Assembly: GCA_963965975.1 (NCBI GenBank)
Contig: OZ014416.1
Span: 5,084,001-5,148,000, forward strand
DNA length: 64,000 nt
Reading direction: 5' to 3'
Origin: Xestospongia bergquistia
Lineage: Eukaryota; Porifera; Demospongiae; Haplosclerida; Petrosiidae
The notes beneath the pieces were generated by a model. The model searched no databases, was not told where the DNA came from, and was given only the letters and a program-made list of their open reading frames with translations. The first letter of the stretch is position 1. The number at the start of each line of letters is the position of its first letter. The translations under genes and the position numbers were made by a program. Shown here in pieces: positions 4,295 to 64,000 of the stretch.

Positions 4295-5496
4295 TTCTGT
4301 ATTTGTACTATCAATAATAGTCTCCATAAGATATTGCTGCTACAATTAGAAGTGATTCCAGTAAGTACAGTTATAGTCACATAACAAGACCCATTCATGT
4401 TGTTTTATAAATTATATGAAGGTATACATGAGGAGAGGACTAACATAGTAATTAAACCATGGTCATTTCAATAGGTGAATCAACTATTGCATTGCTTTGA
4501 AATATTTGATGTCTATCCATAGCAATCTATCTTTCAGATGAGGTAATCAAGTATATATGTGTTAATAAGTTAATAACTAGTATTAAACATAAACATTTTA
4601 GGTGATACATTCATATATGGATATTGTCTACTATGAAGCATCAAATGTACTATAAACTTATAATTTAAATTGAGGTTCCATAGTTTTATATAGAAAGGAA
4701 AAGTATTTAATTTAGGTTCCAAGTTTTTTGCAAAATTTTACAATTATCAAGTAGTGTTATTGTGGTATCATCAAGTTAATCAAACACTTGTTATATGACA
4801 CATAAATATCACATTTAGGTCAATCTAATGGAGTATGATCTACTTATGTGTGTCATAAATCATGTTAACTGTCATTAGACATTACTGGTACTATCTGTTA
4901 GTTAGTATTCATATCTACAAGATGTTATCATAAAGGCAACAGATCTTAATAAGAAACATGTAGAATACTTTGACTCATACAAAGGCTCAATTCAATCTTA
5001 GTGGACAAAATATAGAAAATACAAATTAATTAATTCTACATGTACAAACAGATCATTTATAGAGTCTTGTTGTAAAGACCAGAACTTGTCTGTGCTAAAA
5101 TGTGACAGTGGTAATACATTCATAGAACAGTGAGTAGTGAAGACCATATAATGGATTAATTAATTCCTGCCAGTAATAATATGAAAGTTTTGCAGTTTGA
5201 CTTAAAAATGTTTGCCAATAATTGAAAATTCAAACACTTGAAAATTCTCCAACTGTGTGATATAAAACAAAAACTTGTTTATACAGAACTTGTTTGAAAT
5301 ACTATCAACAAGTATATATATTTATTACAAAACAAGACATTTCACATCTTGTAGGGTAATATGTGAGTTATTATAAAAATACTGATAGAGGAGCTACTTA
5401 ACAGTCAATTATCATAAGTACCATCTACACTCGTAACTAATGATAAGTTTCCTTAGACATTATAATGTGAGACAAAGGCTACTAAACTCTCCAATC

Positions 5497-36640: not shown

Positions 36641-38690
36641 ATATACATTAATAGTTATTAAAATGTCTATTATGGATAACTTTAAACGTTAACATACCGT
36701 CAATAACTCTTTCTTCCTAATATTCAGGGTAAAGACACCACACTTAATTTTATGGTTGCCACGACAACACTCATAATAGTTATAAAAATGACTATTACAG
36801 ACAATTTCAAACCTTAAGTTACCAGCAATAACTCTTTCTGCCTAATATTCAGGGTAAAGATACCACACTCAAGTTTATGGTTGCCACGACAACACTCCTA
36901 TGCATAAAATAGATATAAAAATGACTATTACAGACAATTTCAAACCTTAACTTACCAGCAATAAATCTTTTTGCCTAATATTCAGGGTATAGACATTACA
37001 CCCAATTTTACGGTTGCCACGACAACACTCCTATGCATAGAATAGATATAAAAATGACTATTACAGACAATTTCAAACCTTAACTTACCAGCAATAACTC
37101 TTTCTTCCTAATATTCAGGGTAAAGACACCACACCCAATTTTATGGTTGCCATGACAACACTCCTATGGATAGAATGGTTATAAAAATGACTATTACAGA
37201 CAATTTCAAACATTAATTTACCAGCAATAACTCTTTTTGTGCCTGATATTCAGGATTAAGAGAACAAACCCAACTTTACGGTTGGCATGACAACACACCT
37301 ATGCATAGAATATTTATAAAAATGACTATTACAGACAATTTCAAACCTTAACTTACCAGCAATAACTCTTTCTTCCTAATATTCAGGGTAAAGACACCAC
37401 ACCCAATTTTACGGTTGCCACAACAACACTCCTATGCATAGAATAGTTATAAAAGTGACTATTATAGACAATTTTAAACCTTAACTTACCAGCAATAACT
37501 CTTTCTTCCTAATATTGAGGGAAAAGACACCACACCCAATTTTACGGTTGCCACAACAACACTCCTATGCATAGAATAGTTATAAAAATGACTATTACAG
37601 ACAATTTCAAATCTTAACTTACCAGCAATAACTCTTTCTTCCTAATATTCAGGGTAAAGATACCACACTCAAGTTTATGGTTGCCACGACAACACTCCTA
37701 TGCATAGAATAGATATAAAAATGACTATTACAGACAATTTCAAACCTTAACTTACCAGCAATAACTCTTTCTGCCTAATGTTTAGAGTAAAGACACCACA
37801 CCCAATTTTATGGTTGCCACAACAACACTCCTATGCATAGAATAGTTATAAAAATGACTATTACAGACAATTTCAAACCTTAACTTACCAGCAATAACTC
37901 TTTCTTCATAATATTCAGGGTAAAGACACTACACCCAATTTTACGGTTGCCATGACAACACTCCTATGCATAGAATAGATATAAAAATGACTATTACAGA
38001 GAAATTTCAAACCTTAAGTTACAAGCAATAACTCTTTCTTCCTAATATTCAGGGTAAAGTCACCACACCCAATTTTACAGTTGGCATGACAACACTCCTA
38101 TCCATAGAATAGTTATAAAAATGACTATTACAGACAATTTCAAACCATAAGTTACAAGCAATAACTCTTTCTTCCTAATATTCAGGGTTAAGAGACCACA
38201 CCCAACTTTACGGTTGGAACAACAACACTCCTATGCATAGAATAGTTATAAAAATGACTATTACAGACAAATTTAAACCTTAACTTACCAGCAATAACTC
38301 TTTCTTCCTAATATTCAGGGTTAAGAGACCACACCCAATTTTACGGTTGCCACAACAACACTCCAATGCATAGAATAGTTATAAAAATGACTATTACAGA
38401 CAATTTCAAACCTTAAGTTACCAACAATAACTCTTTCTGCCTAATATTCAGGGTTAAGAGACCACACCCAACTTTACGGTTGCCATGACAACACTCCTAT
38501 GCACAGAATAGTTATATAAATGATTATTACAGACAATTTCAAACCTTAACTTACCAGCAATAACTCTTTCTGCCTAATATTCAGGGTTAAGACACCACAC
38601 TAAATTTTACACTCCTATGCATAGAATAGTTATAGAAATGACTATTACAGACTTACATTACCAGCAAAAATTGTCTCTATAATTATTCTG
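36641..38690 (+). repeat. Satellite array B, about 15 units of ~134 bp
   Basis: Same unit and orientation as array A (411–2,620), but more homogeneous by eye: most units read CTCTTTCTTCCTAATATTCA, GTTGCCACGACAAC/GTTGCCATGACAAC and TAGTTATAAAAATGACTATT. The last unit is truncated near 38,690, where the second copy of the segmental duplication begins, as in copy 1. Confidence 0.93.
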
Positions 38691-57067: not shown

Positions 57068-57998
57068 CTAAATCCCCCCTAAAAATAAATTTATATTCAT
57101 TTACTGGTAGTAGATCTGGCTCTAGTCTTTTTAACAGAGGGACAAGATACACTTTGTTTGCTTTACAAAAAATAGCAAAATACATTGTAACTGAGTATCT
57201 ATTTATTTACCACTAGCAGCTCTAAAGTCACTATTAGAGGGTTGAGATACACTTTGTTTACCTAAAAATAGTTACTTTACATTGTAAACAAATATTATAT
57301 TCATTTACCAGTAATAAAGCTAGCTCCAGGATCACTAACAGAGAGACGAGATACACTTTGTTTACCTTAAAATAATTATAAATACATTGTAAATGTATTA
57401 TTCATTTACCAGTAATTATAACAGCTGTAGACTCACTAACAAACGGACAAGATACACTTTGTTTACTCAAAATAATTATTTATGCATTGTATTGAAAGCA
57501 ATATTTATTCATTTACCAGTAGTAGATCTGGCTCTAGTCTCTCAAACAGAGGGATGAGATACACTTTGTTTACCTAATAACATTATAAATGAATCGTAAA
57601 AATGTACATTCTTTTACCAGTAGCAGCTGTATACTCACTAACAGATAAAGTTTGTCTAACTAAAAATAACTATAGAATGCATTTTAATCAAATACATATT
57701 AATTTACCAGTACCAACTCTAGACACACTAGCAAAGGGACGAGATACACTTTGTTTATCTAAAAATAATTACATATGCATTTTAAACAAATATTTCTTCA
57801 TTTACTAGTAGAGCTTGCTCTGGAGTCACTAACAGAGGGACAAGATACATTTTCTTTACCTAAAAGCAATTATAAATAAATTGTAAAACATTTATATTAA
57901 TTTACCACTAATTGTAGTAGATCTGTTTCTAGTCTCTCTAGAGATGAGATACACTTTGTTTACCTAATATAATTGTAAATACATCATAATATATATAC

Positions 57999-58055
<57 letters not shown>

Positions 58056-58415
58056 AGTAGCAGTTCTACAGTCACTAACAGAGAGATGGAATATATTTTG
58101 TTTACCTTAAAAAATAATTACAATGCATTGTAAACAAATATTTATTTATGTACTAGTAACATATCTGGCTCTAGTCTCTCTAACAGAGGGAAAAGATACA
58201 CTTTGTCTATCTAATATATTTATAAATACATCATAAAAAATATAAGTTCCTTTGCCAGTAGTAGATCCGGCTCTAGTCTCTCTAACAGAAAAATGAGATA
58301 GACTTTGCTTACCTAAAAATAATTGCAATGCATTGTAAACAAACATTTATTCATTAACCAGTAGTAGAGCTGGCTCCAGAGTCACTAACAGAGGGATGAG
58401 ATACACTTTGTTTAC
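57068..58415 (-). CDS. Tandem micro-exon array (about 13 units) with terminal exon
   Basis: On the minus strand a ~100-bp unit repeats about 13 times. Each unit has acceptor 'ttag', an exon usually of 57 nt (range 42–58), and donor 'G|gtaaat'. Exons in order: 58359–58415, 58256–58312 (GC donor), 58154–58210, 58055–58105, 57906–57963 (58 nt, in-frame stop), 57806–57859, 57708–57758, 57618–57659, 57517–57573 (in-frame TGA), about 57410–57466 (acceptor lost), 57309–57365, 57211–57261, about 57105–57165 (acceptor shifted). Nine are intact and all of those are phase 1 to phase 1. Consensus peptide is GKQSVSHPSVRETRARSTT or …SVSDSRASSTT. A last exon at 57068–57078 follows 'atttttag' and adds Gly-Gly-Ile-stop in the same phase. 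It probably encodes a variable-length Ser/Thr/Arg-rich tail, perhaps of gene 2, which lies upstream on the same strand and also uses phase-1 linker exons. Confidence 0.75.
58000..58052. repeat. (TA)n microsatellite inside exon array
   Basis: An alternating TA run preceded by CATA repeats. It lies in the intron between the fourth and fifth array exons and directly abuts the fourth exon's donor. Confidence 0.93.
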
Positions 58416-59870
58416 CTAAAAATAAATGCCTGTACTAAATACTTGCTTGTGCAAAGAGTATTAAGTGATTATGTATTCATTATATTAATTGGAATTACTT
58501 TTTGATCTTTCTCTTACAAGCGTCTTGAGATGGTGTTTTCTTATTATGCACTCATGATTGTGAAGATTATAAAGACAGTGTTCCTTTTTGGTGCATTCAT
58601 TAATGTCATTTGTATTACCAGATCTAGTGATTTACTCCAAGTTGTCTTACTTGCTCTTGACTTTCTTCTGTTACCTGACATTTTACTACAAACATCAATA
58701 GAGACATTAAATTTGGTTCTCCTTAACATTGCATTGTTATTGTTATAGAATTGATTATTATAAGTTGTATAATATATATATATATATATATATATATTGT
58801 ACTTACTATTTGTATGAAGTGCATACTCCAATATAAAAAAAAAACATTTAGGTTCTAATGTTTGGGGTTTATAGGGTGTAGAATATATTAGATATTGTGT
58901 TAATTTGTCATTGCAGCATGTACTGTGCTGTGCAAGTGGGGACTACCTATATCTGTTCCTTACAGAATTATTAGCTCCCATTTTACATATAATCTAGTTA
59001 CATAGACATACTGTTGATGTTAATAAAGAGTGTTATGTGTTCTATTGATATCAGAAGTTCATAGGCTTAAACTTATTGCTTGTTGCCATACTATGATCCT
59101 TCCTCCTTTGAAAAGACTATATGAACTGAAGTAACCAGGAAAGAGACAGTTAATGTATTCACCTGTAATAAACATAGTCATCAACTTGGTAAAATGAGCA
59201 TAAAGTATCTATGTGTTCCTTTTGATTTCTTTCATGTAGGATGTGTGATAATATAACATTCTTACCCTTATATATATACATATATATATTACATGGTCTC
59301 TTATATTCTATTAATAATGCTGTTAATAATGTGTTTTGACAATTAATAATTATTTTGCGATGTGAAATTAATTGGTGATTATGAAATATTCCTATTGACT
59401 GTATGTGTTCATTTGTTTACCCACACTTTATTAAGAATTTTAAAAATTTGTTAATATTTGTATATCAAAAACAATAAAAATGCAGTTCAAAAATACAGAT
59501 AGTTGGAAATGTAGAAAAATGTAAAGTGAGGATTATATCTAAAAATAATTATTATTGATGTTAAATAATTATGAATTAATTATTTAAGTAATGTTAATTA
59601 ACTGTTATTAATTATTATTATTAATTATCAGTTTTCAAAGTTGAATACTCATGAAGTAATAGTACCTATGAAAAATGATAACAGACTTATTGACTCATTA
59701 TTATGATGGCTAAAGCTTAAAACTATTGTTTATAATACACAAATAATATCTACTGTATATCAAGAGAATACAACAAATCATTTATAGGAGTCATGTACAT
59801 AACTACTATAGATACAAAGTGTTACTTTATTATAAAAAAATATAGAATCACTTTTAAAAGTCATTTTCAT
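58416..59870. other. No confirmed gene between array and gene 2 tail
   Basis: AT-rich. On the minus strand an open stretch at about 58,544–58,700 (acceptor-like 'atgtcag' then GNRRKSRASKTTWSKSLD) resembles an array exon in composition and start, but phases do not match at its donor. A (TA)n run lies at 58,770–58,797. The hydrophobic plus-strand frame at 58,530–58,748 is treated as a shadow. Confidence 0.35.
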
Positions 59871-59877
59871 AACTTAC

Positions 59878-59947
59878 CATATTACTATAGCAATAGTTGC
59901 TACAATGACTGATACTGCACACCAACCACCAACATAAAAATTATTAA
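59878..59947 (-). other. Candidate transmembrane exon downstream of gene 2
   Basis: On the minus strand, acceptor 'aatatag' and donor 'TG|gtaagt' bound 70 nt that, read from phase 1, encode NNFYVGGW followed by a strongly hydrophobic run (CAVSVIVATIAIVIW). This would be a typical single membrane-spanning helix. Entering from the phase-1 end of the exon at 60,809 keeps the frame. Two tiny possible exons in between (60,079–60,092 and 59,991–60,014) would instead shift this exon to phase 0 and a stop. It is uncertain which, if either, is used. Confidence 0.4.
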
Positions 59948-60808
59948 CTATATTAAAAGTAATATTAAGTTATTAGGCTATGAAACATACTTTGATAAGC
60001 TTGTTGAACTGTGCCTTGACCACAAATTTTAGCATTAAATGTATTTTGTTTTTTAAGATATCGAGTTACAATACTTACTCTCTTGGTTGACTCTATAGAA
60101 TAGAGAAAGGAAGCAAATATAGTTTAAAAGAAGTCATTGAATGGCCATATACATGTACACTGAAAACAATTAGCTATAATCTGATCAAACAGAAAATGGA
60201 GGTATTATGTGTTGACATAGCAAATCATAACATCTTTGTTATTCCTATAATTATTGATAAATTAATTATAGTGTTGTGTTTGAGTGTCCATTCCTTAAAA
60301 ATGAGGCTTATTACTAAATTTAAACTTAAAGTGTTTAGACAATCATTGATATAAAGGAATATATTGTTTTATTATTAAACCAATTACTAGATGCAGTATA
60401 TATTCGAAGTATATGCATTTATCAGATAAAGTATTTTTGTTAAGTGTAATTGCTAAGTCATAACTATATGTGGAGGATCGATAATAAACCAGTACATTTT
60501 AACAATACTGTAATATATTGTAATTGTATTTTACTTAGCACTTACTTATTGTGTATAATTCTATCTTTTGTTAGGTTTGATTTTCTGTGTATTTGTTAAT
60601 AGGTGCTTACTATATTCCTTTTGTAATAGGTAACAATGTTTAGTTGTGTTAATACTCTTTCTTTTATGCTATGTGTTACTTTTTAGTTACACCTTTCTTT
60701 GTTGAGTTTTCTATTTAAACTTGCTTGATGTTGTTATTGATATAGAGAGATTTATTTTCAAATCATATTTTGTGAATTCAGTGGTTTAAGTTACCACAAA
60801 TACCTTAC

Positions 60809-63735
60809 CAGTAGTGGTCAATAACTCCAACAGATCATCATCACAAATGTCACCACATCCCTTTGTCTTGGCTACATAAATGACAGTATAAAATAACTAT
60901 GATGATTACTCTTTATAAAGGCAACAATAACTAAGATTGATTTTTTAAAAGTGAAGACACAAGTACAAAATCAACTAAAATGCAATAACCTAATTTTCTG
61001 GGACTATATAAGGACTCACCTTTTAAGAACTTTTCTATCTCTATCACAACAAATTTAGTTTCAATAGGTGGACTTTCTATTGTCTGTAAAATTGTGTTCC
61101 AAGTGACAGGTTTAGGCATTGTATCCATCCAAAGTTGTAACACTTCAGCAAGTTTTTCAATGTCTTTTGAGGTCTTGCTTTGTAAAGAGGCCAGGTATAC
61201 ATATTTAATTCCAAGACATTCACCAATAATATTCCATTTAAAGGCAATATCTGACATTAGTTTTAGAAGGTCACATTTCTCAGGACATGTTTCTAATAAA
61301 TCAGAAAAAGCATGGTCATCAGTGACAATAATGTATATGTATATACAGTAATTGGGTAAGAAAGCTATCATTTACTACACAATTGCCTTAAATATACACT
61401 CAGATGTGTATAACAAACCTTTTAGACTTGAAATATTTGTAGATTGAAGGCGATTTTTTGAGACTTCTATAATTTCATTTTGTGTTAAACATGGACTTGA
61501 AAGAACCTTAAATTCATGAAATATATGTCTTAAAATAATGAGTACAAGGATAATGTATTAAATTAGTAATTGATTGTGCTCATATATAAAGATCTATAGT
61601 CTCATATATCATATAATAATGAAGACATGTATAAGGTTTAATATAGTACTGTAACTTACCAAAGGATTTTGTCCAGTGAAAAAACTATAGTCATTGAGCT
61701 GATTGGAAACATCAGAATAGGTGCTACCTTTGGATGTATTATAAGATGAAATTATACTAGGGACAAATTCTTGTATGTGTTGAAGAAATTTGTCTGGAAT
61801 AACTTCATTGGTTTTGGCATCAGAGAATAAGGCGTGGATGACTGCTGGTGCAAGGGAGATGTATGGCTCATGTGGACAAATGTATTTGACATTGATTGAA
61901 CTATCATGAACTTCATTATGGTCAAATATTTCCTCATTAACTAGCATTCCTCGAGCTACATCATTTACTTTATAAAGTATTCGTTCAGAAATAGCCTTAC
62001 AACGAATGTCAGCTAAAGATCCAGGAGGAATTATGTACTCTTCAATTATACATGGGCACAACTGCTTTTGAAGAGAAAGAATCAGTTTTATAATAGAGCA
62101 ACACATTTTTTGACTTTCAACTTCATTAACATTGGAAACAAATACAGTGACACATCTATTATCATCTGTCACTTCTACTACTACATCATTTCTATGTTTC
62201 CAAAAAATACCATTCTTCCAGACTGTACATCGACGATTCAACTGTTGTATAGGAGATCTTTTGTCTAATTCACCAAGTTTACGATGACGAGGAAGGGAGT
62301 ATAGATATGCTAACCGAAGCAAAAGAACATGAAGGAAACGAACAGAGAGGAATTGAAATGAATTAGGGCAATATAAACACCAACCAAATCCATTTTGGAA
62401 ATGCTCATTCAAATTTGAAGGAGGCTCAGTGGTGACAAGGGCAGGAAAGAACAGGACTTCTAAATCAGAAAATTTATCTGATGAAGACAAGTTGGTAGTA
62501 ATAGTATTCAGTGTGTCTAAATCGATAACATGACAAAATTCCATACATATTAAAAAATCAATAAGCATACTTGTATCATAGGTTGGAAAGAGCTTTTGCA
62601 AAACAGAAAGATGGACAATGCCAGTGTTGCTAGATGTTGGTATAGGAAGATGTTTGATGTTCTTATTAAAAAGAACACCATTAACTTCAGCAAGGAGAAA
62701 TGATTTCTTTACTACAATCCAACTGTTAGAAACTATTTTATTTCTCAGAAACAGAACAAGACCTTTGTCACTGAGAACTGACAAGTAGTCAAGTAAAATT
62801 GTTTCATCTGAAGGGAGGGAAGGATCATTAAGATCTTTTAAACTTTCAATAAGTTCTTTAAGGCTAATAGCTACTTTCTGTAGTTTTTGGAGGTAGGCAT
62901 AATGCACATGGCAGTAATAACTAATGCTGTCACACTTATCAAGGACAGCCTTACAACTTTCACGAAGATGAAGGATGAATTCAGGAAAACCTTTTCCACC
63001 TGGGCAATGACAATCCATGGCAACAAAACTTCTATACTTTTGCTTATGAATAGCATCTTTAACAACATAATTCACACGCAACTTGAATTCATCATGACTG
63101 TTGGTAAATTGATCAGCAAAGCTTCCAACGACAATTACTTGAGAAGGTTTAGTTAAATTAGCACAAATGTTTTCAATAAAGTTAGACCAGTAATACAACT
63201 GATTCTCAAAGTAGTCAAAACCTTTGGTTGAATCTATCACTATTATAAAAACTGCAGGAGTTCTCAACATAAGATTCTCTAGTACAGCTGCATGACTACT
63301 ATAATATTCTTGATGACCAGCAAAATCATAAAGAATAACATTTCCAACTTCATGACTACGAATATTATGATAGTTAATACCAGCAGTTTCCAATTGGACA
63401 CCTTCAATGCATTGAGAAGGGTTGTAGTGATAATCAGCAGGTTTATCAGCACGATATATAATACATTGGGCTAATGAACTCTTTCCAGCTGTCATGTTTC
63501 CACAAAGGAACACTTTTCTATATGAATCAACTGGATAGTCATGACAACTTTTCTCAAATGGCTCAAACATCTTCAATATTTCAAATCTATTTGGATCGTT
63601 CAGTCGGACTTCTTCTAGTGGAGTTTTCCGAAGACGGTTACAATAAAGTGGATTGACTTTTCCAGTGTGAAGTAAATATGATATTACATCTACTTTACCA
63701 TTTGCACAAGCAAGATGTAAGAGAGAGTCCCCATA
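60809..63735 (-). CDS. Gene 2 (partial): ankyrin–Roc–COR–Death protein
   Basis: Four consecutive minus-strand exons keep frame: 63735–61660 (692 codons), 61506–61419, 61364–61020, 60871–60809. The first starts at acceptor 'ttcacag' with an ankyrin repeat (GDSLLHLACANGKVDVISYL), then P-loop CGNMTAGKSSL, TAGINYH, DFAGHQEYY (G3) and, at the G4 position, VGSFADQ; a COR-like region follows. It ends CPL-type 'NPL|gtaagt' exactly where the gene 1 exon ends. The third exon is a Death domain (LLKLMSDIAFKWNIIGECLG … VLQLWMDTMPKPVTWNTILQ). The fourth is a 21-residue linker, phase 1 to phase 1. Earlier exons, presumably more ankyrin repeats, lie beyond the right edge; 63,736–64,000 is intron. The 3' end is unresolved: possible continuations are the hydrophobic exon at 59.9 kb and the micro-exon array. 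A DAPK-like death-fold scaffold is the likely family. Introns of 54 nt match gene 1. Confidence 0.85.
61020..61364 (-). other. Gene 2 Death-domain exon
   Basis: About 115 residues, phase 1 at both ends. Acceptor 'atgatag' at 61,365–61,366 gives an intron of only 54 nt. Key features are the helix LLKLMSDIAFKWNIIGECLG, the Asp/Ile/Glu-rich third helix (SKDIEKLAEVLQLWMDTM), the PVTWNTILQTI motif and a last helix ending EIEKFLKG. The motifs align one to one with the gene 1 Death exon. The first ~20 residues are unusual (several Tyr/Ile from a TA-rich stretch), so the true acceptor could differ. Confidence 0.82.
61660..63735 (-). other. Gene 2 Roc–COR exon
   Basis: Parallel to gene 1 exon 10 in length (2,076 versus 2,055 nt), in both boundaries and in motif order. 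The P-loop and Switch II (DFAGHQEYY) are canonical. The G4 site SFAD lacks the His/Lys usually before Asp-neighbouring guanine contacts, so guanine specificity may be altered. A short insertion relative to gene 1 follows LFLRN (VSNSWIVVKKSFLLAEVNG). Confidence 0.88.
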
Positions 63736-63784
63736 CTGTGAAGAATAAATAAATACAATAATAGTTATTATCAATACAATCTAG

Positions 63785-63807
63785 ATTATATATATATATA
63801 TATATAT
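63785..63807. repeat. (TA)n microsatellite in gene 2 intron
   Basis: A short alternating TA run about 50 nt upstream (minus strand) of the gene 2 Roc–COR exon acceptor. The remaining sequence to the window edge is intronic with no further exon seen. Confidence 0.85.
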
Positions 63808-64000
63808 GATAAATGCATTATGTTCTACAATCTCCTAGAGAGCAACAATGAAAATTTTGTAAACAATTTTGTTATATGTATGTTAATTTCCTTTAAAATA
63901 TTGATAATAAAAAGTCAATAATGTGTTATGTACATTGGATGTTAAAGGATAAAAACATAATACACATAGACAGAAATGGACAGAATCCTACAATTTGAAA

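Follow-up and report, generated by a model that had tools for sequence, protein, structure and literature searches.

The window analysed here is a stretch of 64,000 nucleotides from the demosponge Xestospongia bergquistia (assembly GCA_963965975.1, contig OZ014416.1, positions 5,084,001 to 5,148,000), whose minus strand carries, at 57,105–58,415, 13 tandem units of about 100 bp, each with an exon-like block of 42–58 nt. We consider it probable (about 0.82) that this array is a relic, truncated at its 5' and 3' ends, of a decayed pogo-like DNA transposon, in which it once formed a spliced C-terminal tail of the transposase.

The array in the window

A row of about 13 frame-neutral, micro-exon-like units had been described in an earlier note on this DNA; the 13 units were confirmed and, in a unit-by-unit check, so were its nine intact exons, all running from phase 1 to phase 1 (eight with a GT donor, one with GC). 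To count as intact, a unit needed an AG acceptor, a GT or GC donor, an exon free of stops and an exon length that is a multiple of 3. The exons measure 42, 51, 54 and 57 nt, with a single one of 58 nt, and the introns between units mostly 44–50 nt. The four broken units comprise two without an AG acceptor, one with a TGA and one frameshifted. Here and at the other loci, units were chosen by eye from anchor matches with at most five mismatches, a table that leaves out partial units of loci L010, L013 and L014 and in which the donor position is wrong for one unit or more in both L012 and L013. The window units, all on the minus strand, are:

58,359–58,415: unit 1, 57 nt, intact, GKQSVSHPSVSDSGASSTT
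58,256–58,312: unit 2, 57 nt, open, GC donor
58,154–58,210: unit 3, 57 nt, intact
58,055–58,105: unit 4, 51 nt, intact, with an expanded TA run after it
57,906–57,963: unit 5, 58 nt, frameshift and stops
57,806–57,859: unit 6, 54 nt, intact
57,708–57,758: unit 7, 51 nt, intact
57,618–57,659: unit 8, 42 nt, intact
57,517–57,573: unit 9, 57 nt, TGA in frame
57,410–57,466: unit 10, 57 nt, acceptor GA instead of AG
57,309–57,365: unit 11, 57 nt, intact
57,211–57,261: unit 12, 51 nt, intact
57,105–57,161: unit 13, 57 nt, acceptor AA, where the duplicate L009 (see below) has AG

Tandem Repeats Finder detected the lower part of the array with a period of 204 at 57,083–57,984 (score 541) and of 101 at 57,094–57,984 (score 434), and the upper part at 58,065–58,429 with a period of 102–103. 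The higher score of period 204 fits alternating two-unit blocks and is in line with two alternating peptide types.

Array copies and their probable source element

With the array as query, a search of the genome from which the window comes (21 contigs, 146 Mb) identified it at nine places: the window, a segmental duplicate 605 kb off (L009, at C6:5.746 Mb) and seven loci without the neighbouring gene. A 22-base unit pattern, searched with up to three mismatches, behaved likewise, with 48 of its 49 matches inside these nine places (the reversed pattern, used as control, gave one). L009 is a copy of the window region, including the Ank-Roc-Death gene located upstream of the array, and neither a Roc nor a Death match was observed at the seven other loci, in the 9.9 kb fetched per locus.

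Four of the seven gene-less loci (L010, L012, L013 and L014) have the DNA upstream of the array in common, and it contains decayed pogo-like transposase sequence. Three-frame reading of L010, L012 and L014 revealed broken transposase frames, and L013 is 95% identical to L012. With 40 of 60 candidates scored, the L012 region matches the genome at 65 places, and 15 sibling loci match L012 up to one common point in the intron that follows the transposase coil exon (base 1590 of the L012 query in 13 of the 15, bases 1586 and 1580 in the others). In the 13 siblings that were aligned, the place of the array is taken by a second charged (coil) exon in all 13 and by a serine/threonine-rich exon as well in 12; by our reading, both would be phase 1–1 exons.

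The transposase domains were identified through one of these siblings, L020, which L012 matches at 83% over query positions 30–1590: a 275-amino-acid frame of L020 matched DDE_1 (4.4e-16), and a helix-turn-helix domain was recognized as HTH_psq (4.7e-10). The DDE piece of L020 has 286 relatives among public proteins at E up to 1e-5. Pfam gave nothing at 0.01 for the middle piece of L020 or for a 139-amino-acid piece of L010, and a search of solved structures with L020:2576-3046 gave no match at 0.01. L012 and L013 have terminal inverted repeats: portions of a 359-bp terminal block occur at either end, in opposite orientations; within the fetched stretches, the block is present at one end only in L010 and absent from L014. 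The array of L010 is followed by a short exon that reads, in phase 1, GGTTVCV-stop; AATAAA comes directly behind it.

In several sibling pogo-like loci of about 4–10 kb, two transposase-like segments lie in convergent orientation close to inverted terminal blocks (G000:C3:3506234-3515647; C15:2269280-2279171; C1:12081631-12086399; C4:3615918-3620056). In L015 (6839-7743) and L016 (7011-7915), two array units come after a full terminal block, an arrangement resembling that of a derivative with an internal deletion. A few kb from these derivative-like stretches lie frames, seen by eye, which we take to be piggyBac-like.

The window copy is a fragment

The limits of the window copy, and the terminal exon proposed in the earlier note, are as follows (minus strand):

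57,083–58,529: whole relic of the transposon 3' part, with sharp ends, lacking the terminal block, the last unit and the native terminal exon
58,499–58,529: what is left of the transposase coil exon, its 3' end, read by eye as KTLVRERSK and ending in phase 1; on the 5' side, homology to the transposon copies goes no further
57,068–57,078: proposed terminal exon, GGI-stop (AG + GGGGGATTTAG), in flanking DNA outside the repeated unit

Against L012, L013 and L014, the window begins to match at oriented position 5472–5475, the coil-exon remnant amounts to about 31 nt in the alignment with L010, L012, L013 and L014, and homology to the transposon copies ends at about 57,083. There is no terminal block in the window, and neither a transposase domain nor terminal repeats in its copy of the array, which is a fragment and not an element. 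The letters of the proposed terminal exon are indeed present, but they lie in flanking DNA, beyond the repeat and the transposon homology. A similar stretch accompanies no other array except that of the duplicate, where it reads TGGTGATTTAG and stands about 260 bases further on. The duplicate retains one unit more than the window.

The coil-exon remnant also points to a transfer from the transposon to the window. The opposite order, in which the array arose in the host gene and was captured by the transposon later, might be suggested by array length, since no array found is longer than those of the window and L009 (13 and 14 units listed), but we regard it as extremely improbable, given that the window copy opens on some 31 nt matching the end of the transposase coil exon and that the array places do not coincide with other paralogues of the Death exon of that gene. 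We propose instead that a fragment of the transposon 3' part landed downstream of the Ank-Roc-Death-transmembrane gene and was then copied along with it in the segmental duplication, since it is seen at both loci.

Was the array once coding?

In the living element, the last transposase coil exon would have ended in phase 1 and been followed by a row of phase 1–1 micro-exons and a short terminal exon, giving a serine/threonine-rich tail with about 14–19 residues per unit, as predicted from phases and splice sites. The earlier description of the units as frame-neutral micro-exons agrees with this model, in which they would once have added a repeated serine/threonine-rich tail. By our reading, coil exon, units and L010 terminal exon share phase 1. 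In L009, 13 of the 14 exons and two of the 13 introns have lengths divisible by 3, lengths that are partly inherited and not independent. Unit-to-unit identity is 0.73 for exon parts and 0.75 for intron parts, but exon parts stand further above background, since after shuffling the exon parts align at 0.29 and the intron parts at 0.47. A coding past is thus favoured by the phase held in common, by exon lengths, by the exon identity above shuffled sequence and by the tail exons of the siblings.

Several observations weigh against this interpretation. Among the seven 57-nt units of L009 the three codon positions differ alike (0.24, 0.21 and 0.24), and, although indels that are multiples of 3 make up four of five between unit types and four of 10 among private indels, this contrast, drawn from hand-entered indels, is not significant (p 0.28), so that neither codon positions nor indels add support for a coding past. 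Only L010 has both an acceptor AG and a stop in the terminal exon; L011 has AG without a stop, L013 a stop without AG, and L012 neither. No intact array-bearing element was seen, the frames being broken in all three copies read, and L010, L012, L013 and L014 are not among the DDE_1 matches listed (150 of 327 candidates scored); for these two reasons the coding role of the array is only inferred. Finally, the share of intact units among those listed is higher in the window (9/13) and L009 (11/14) than in the seven other loci (9/33), which could hint at retention. Against this hint stands a substitution-only simulation, in which 71, 59 and 49% of units remain intact at 6, 9 and 12% change, the 9% level being our own estimate from between-locus distances. 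When the peptides of the nine intact units of the window were joined and used as a protein query, 259 candidates were obtained, none at E≤10, a result that says little because a gene caller without splicing would not join the unit peptides.

The array might also be a non-coding minisatellite within the transposon, its splice-like borders and phases being a coincidence of one repeated unit. The similar raw identities of exon and intron parts, the absent codon-position bias, the non-significant indel contrast and the similar divergence of exons and introns between loci (see below) are what such a repeat would show. We nevertheless find it unlikely, because the margin above shuffled sequence is larger for exon parts, divisibility by 3 is largely confined to exons (with the dependence just mentioned), the phase agrees with the preceding coil exon and, in L010, with the following stop-bearing exon, and phase 1–1 tail exons occupy the place of the array in siblings. 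As for the use of the array in the transposon, the living transposase may have had, though we consider this less likely than not, a serine/threonine-rich tail assembled from optional, frame-neutral micro-exons, about 14 at most, its length varying between copies with unit number and within a copy through splicing.

Divergence and constraint

Between the window and L009, 12 of 702 sites differ in array exons (1.7%) and 10 of 629 in array introns (1.6%, gaps excluded), in a comparison where the lengths of units 5, 6 and 7 are slightly unlike those in the unit table. The corresponding values are 16/2129 (0.75%) for the Roc exon, 1/287 for the Death exon, 1.1–1.5% for other introns and 42/1293 (3.2%) for the DNA beyond the array. 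The changes in array exons are eight nonsynonymous and four synonymous, a ratio that alone says little because the Roc exon also has 10 and six. Between loci outside close pairs, exon divergence is 0.12–0.20 and intron divergence 0.10–0.21, without excess at third positions. The underlying alignment spans the array incompletely in six loci, and for L012 and L013 it may set units against each other that do not correspond. The equal divergence of exons and introns fits relics without constraint. The window relic would now be decaying without measurable constraint, and it is probably not spliced into the neighbouring gene.

The neighbouring upstream gene

The gene upstream of the array, on the same strand, was delimited as follows:

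61,612–63,780, minus: open frame with one Ank repeat and a Roc GTPase
61,020–61,287, minus: Death-like exon, phase 1 end
60,809–60,871, minus: next exon, AKTKGCGDICDDDLLELLTTT, phase 1–1, present in five of five paralogues fetched
59,991–60,092, minus: next exon, ESTKRVSIVTRYLKKQNTFNAKICGQGTVQQAYQ, phase 1–1
59,878–59,914, minus: transmembrane-like exon, ISVIVATIAIVI(W), phase 1 to phase 2
59,635–59,665, minus: native terminal exon, (W)YYYFMSIQL-stop, with AATAAA beginning at 59,432

The exon at 61,020–61,287, for which Pfam gave no match at 0.001, is what we take to be a Death domain. Its family is very large, with at least 150 matches genome-wide (150 scored of 916 candidates). The transmembrane-like and terminal exons are also present in an array-less paralogue (L048), one of five fetched; in the other four, no DNA match to this part was found within the fetched 3.2–3.4 kb. 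Window positions 57,145–64,000 and L009 (C6:5744500-5754400) show that gene and array were duplicated together, with substitutions of about 1% over the gene.

We considered whether this gene has exonised the relic, an alternative isoform skipping the transmembrane-like exon and joining a phase-1 donor (at 60,809 or 59,991) to the units, to end in a serine/threonine-rich tail. The Death exon and the next two exons all end in phase 1, the latter two (60,809–60,871 and 59,991–60,092) would read in frame into unit 1, nine of 13 units are intact, and the array remained with the gene through duplication. However, joining the transmembrane-like exon to the array creates an immediate stop, the gene already has its own terminal exon, 1.2 kb before the array, and AATAAA, array exons diverge as array introns do, and none of the other 148 of the 150 scored Death-exon matches lies within 60 kb of an array place. 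Such an isoform is possible but unsupported, and we judge it very improbable. A tail of the host gene was rejected as the principal explanation on account of that terminal exon, the intron-like divergence of the array exons and the gene-less arrays elsewhere. A working, tunable tail of a gene at this place, as proposed in the earlier note, is not supported: at other loci the array is part of a decayed pogo-like transposon, the neighbouring gene has a terminal exon of its own, the array exons show no constraint since the duplication, and the proposed terminal exon is flanking DNA.

Other repeats are present in the window, namely two minisatellites at 427–2496 (period 137, 12.5 copies) and 36,650–38,610 (period 133, 14.8 copies), with a largely common consensus.

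Comparison with known systems

The source element has in common with the pogo superfamily (IS630-Tc1-mariner) the DDE_1 domain, a helix-turn-helix DNA-binding domain and terminal inverted repeats, as given in the main text of PMC7386202, which also mentions long terminal inverted repeats (392–856 bp) in some unclassified insect-restricted elements. The DNA-binding match here is HTH_psq, as in many of the listed public-protein relatives of the L020 DDE piece. The source element differs from pogo in that its C-terminal part apparently comes from several phase 1–1 exons, here a micro-exon row; the word "intron" is absent from the main text of PMC7386202.

Schistosoma micro-exon genes likewise have short symmetric exons that can be omitted without changing the frame, as described in parts of PMC8293314 and PMC10526429, and the nine intact phase 1–1 units are short and symmetric in the same sense. 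In contrast to these genes, the units are tandem copies of one unit of about 100 bp at the end of a transposase gene, and the window exons (42–57 nt) exceed the 36 bp named for micro-exons in a passage of PMC8293314. The array had been considered undescribed, in agreement with an open-access literature search with narrow terms, which found no report of such an array in a transposase; as far as that search shows, a tail of micro-exons on a pogo-like transposon would be new.

These results correct an attractive interpretation, since an exon-like array behind a multi-exon gene is here most likely transposon debris. If the tail model is true, it would represent a tandem expansion of micro-exons within a transposase gene, and a ready source of frame-neutral exons able to end up beside host genes.
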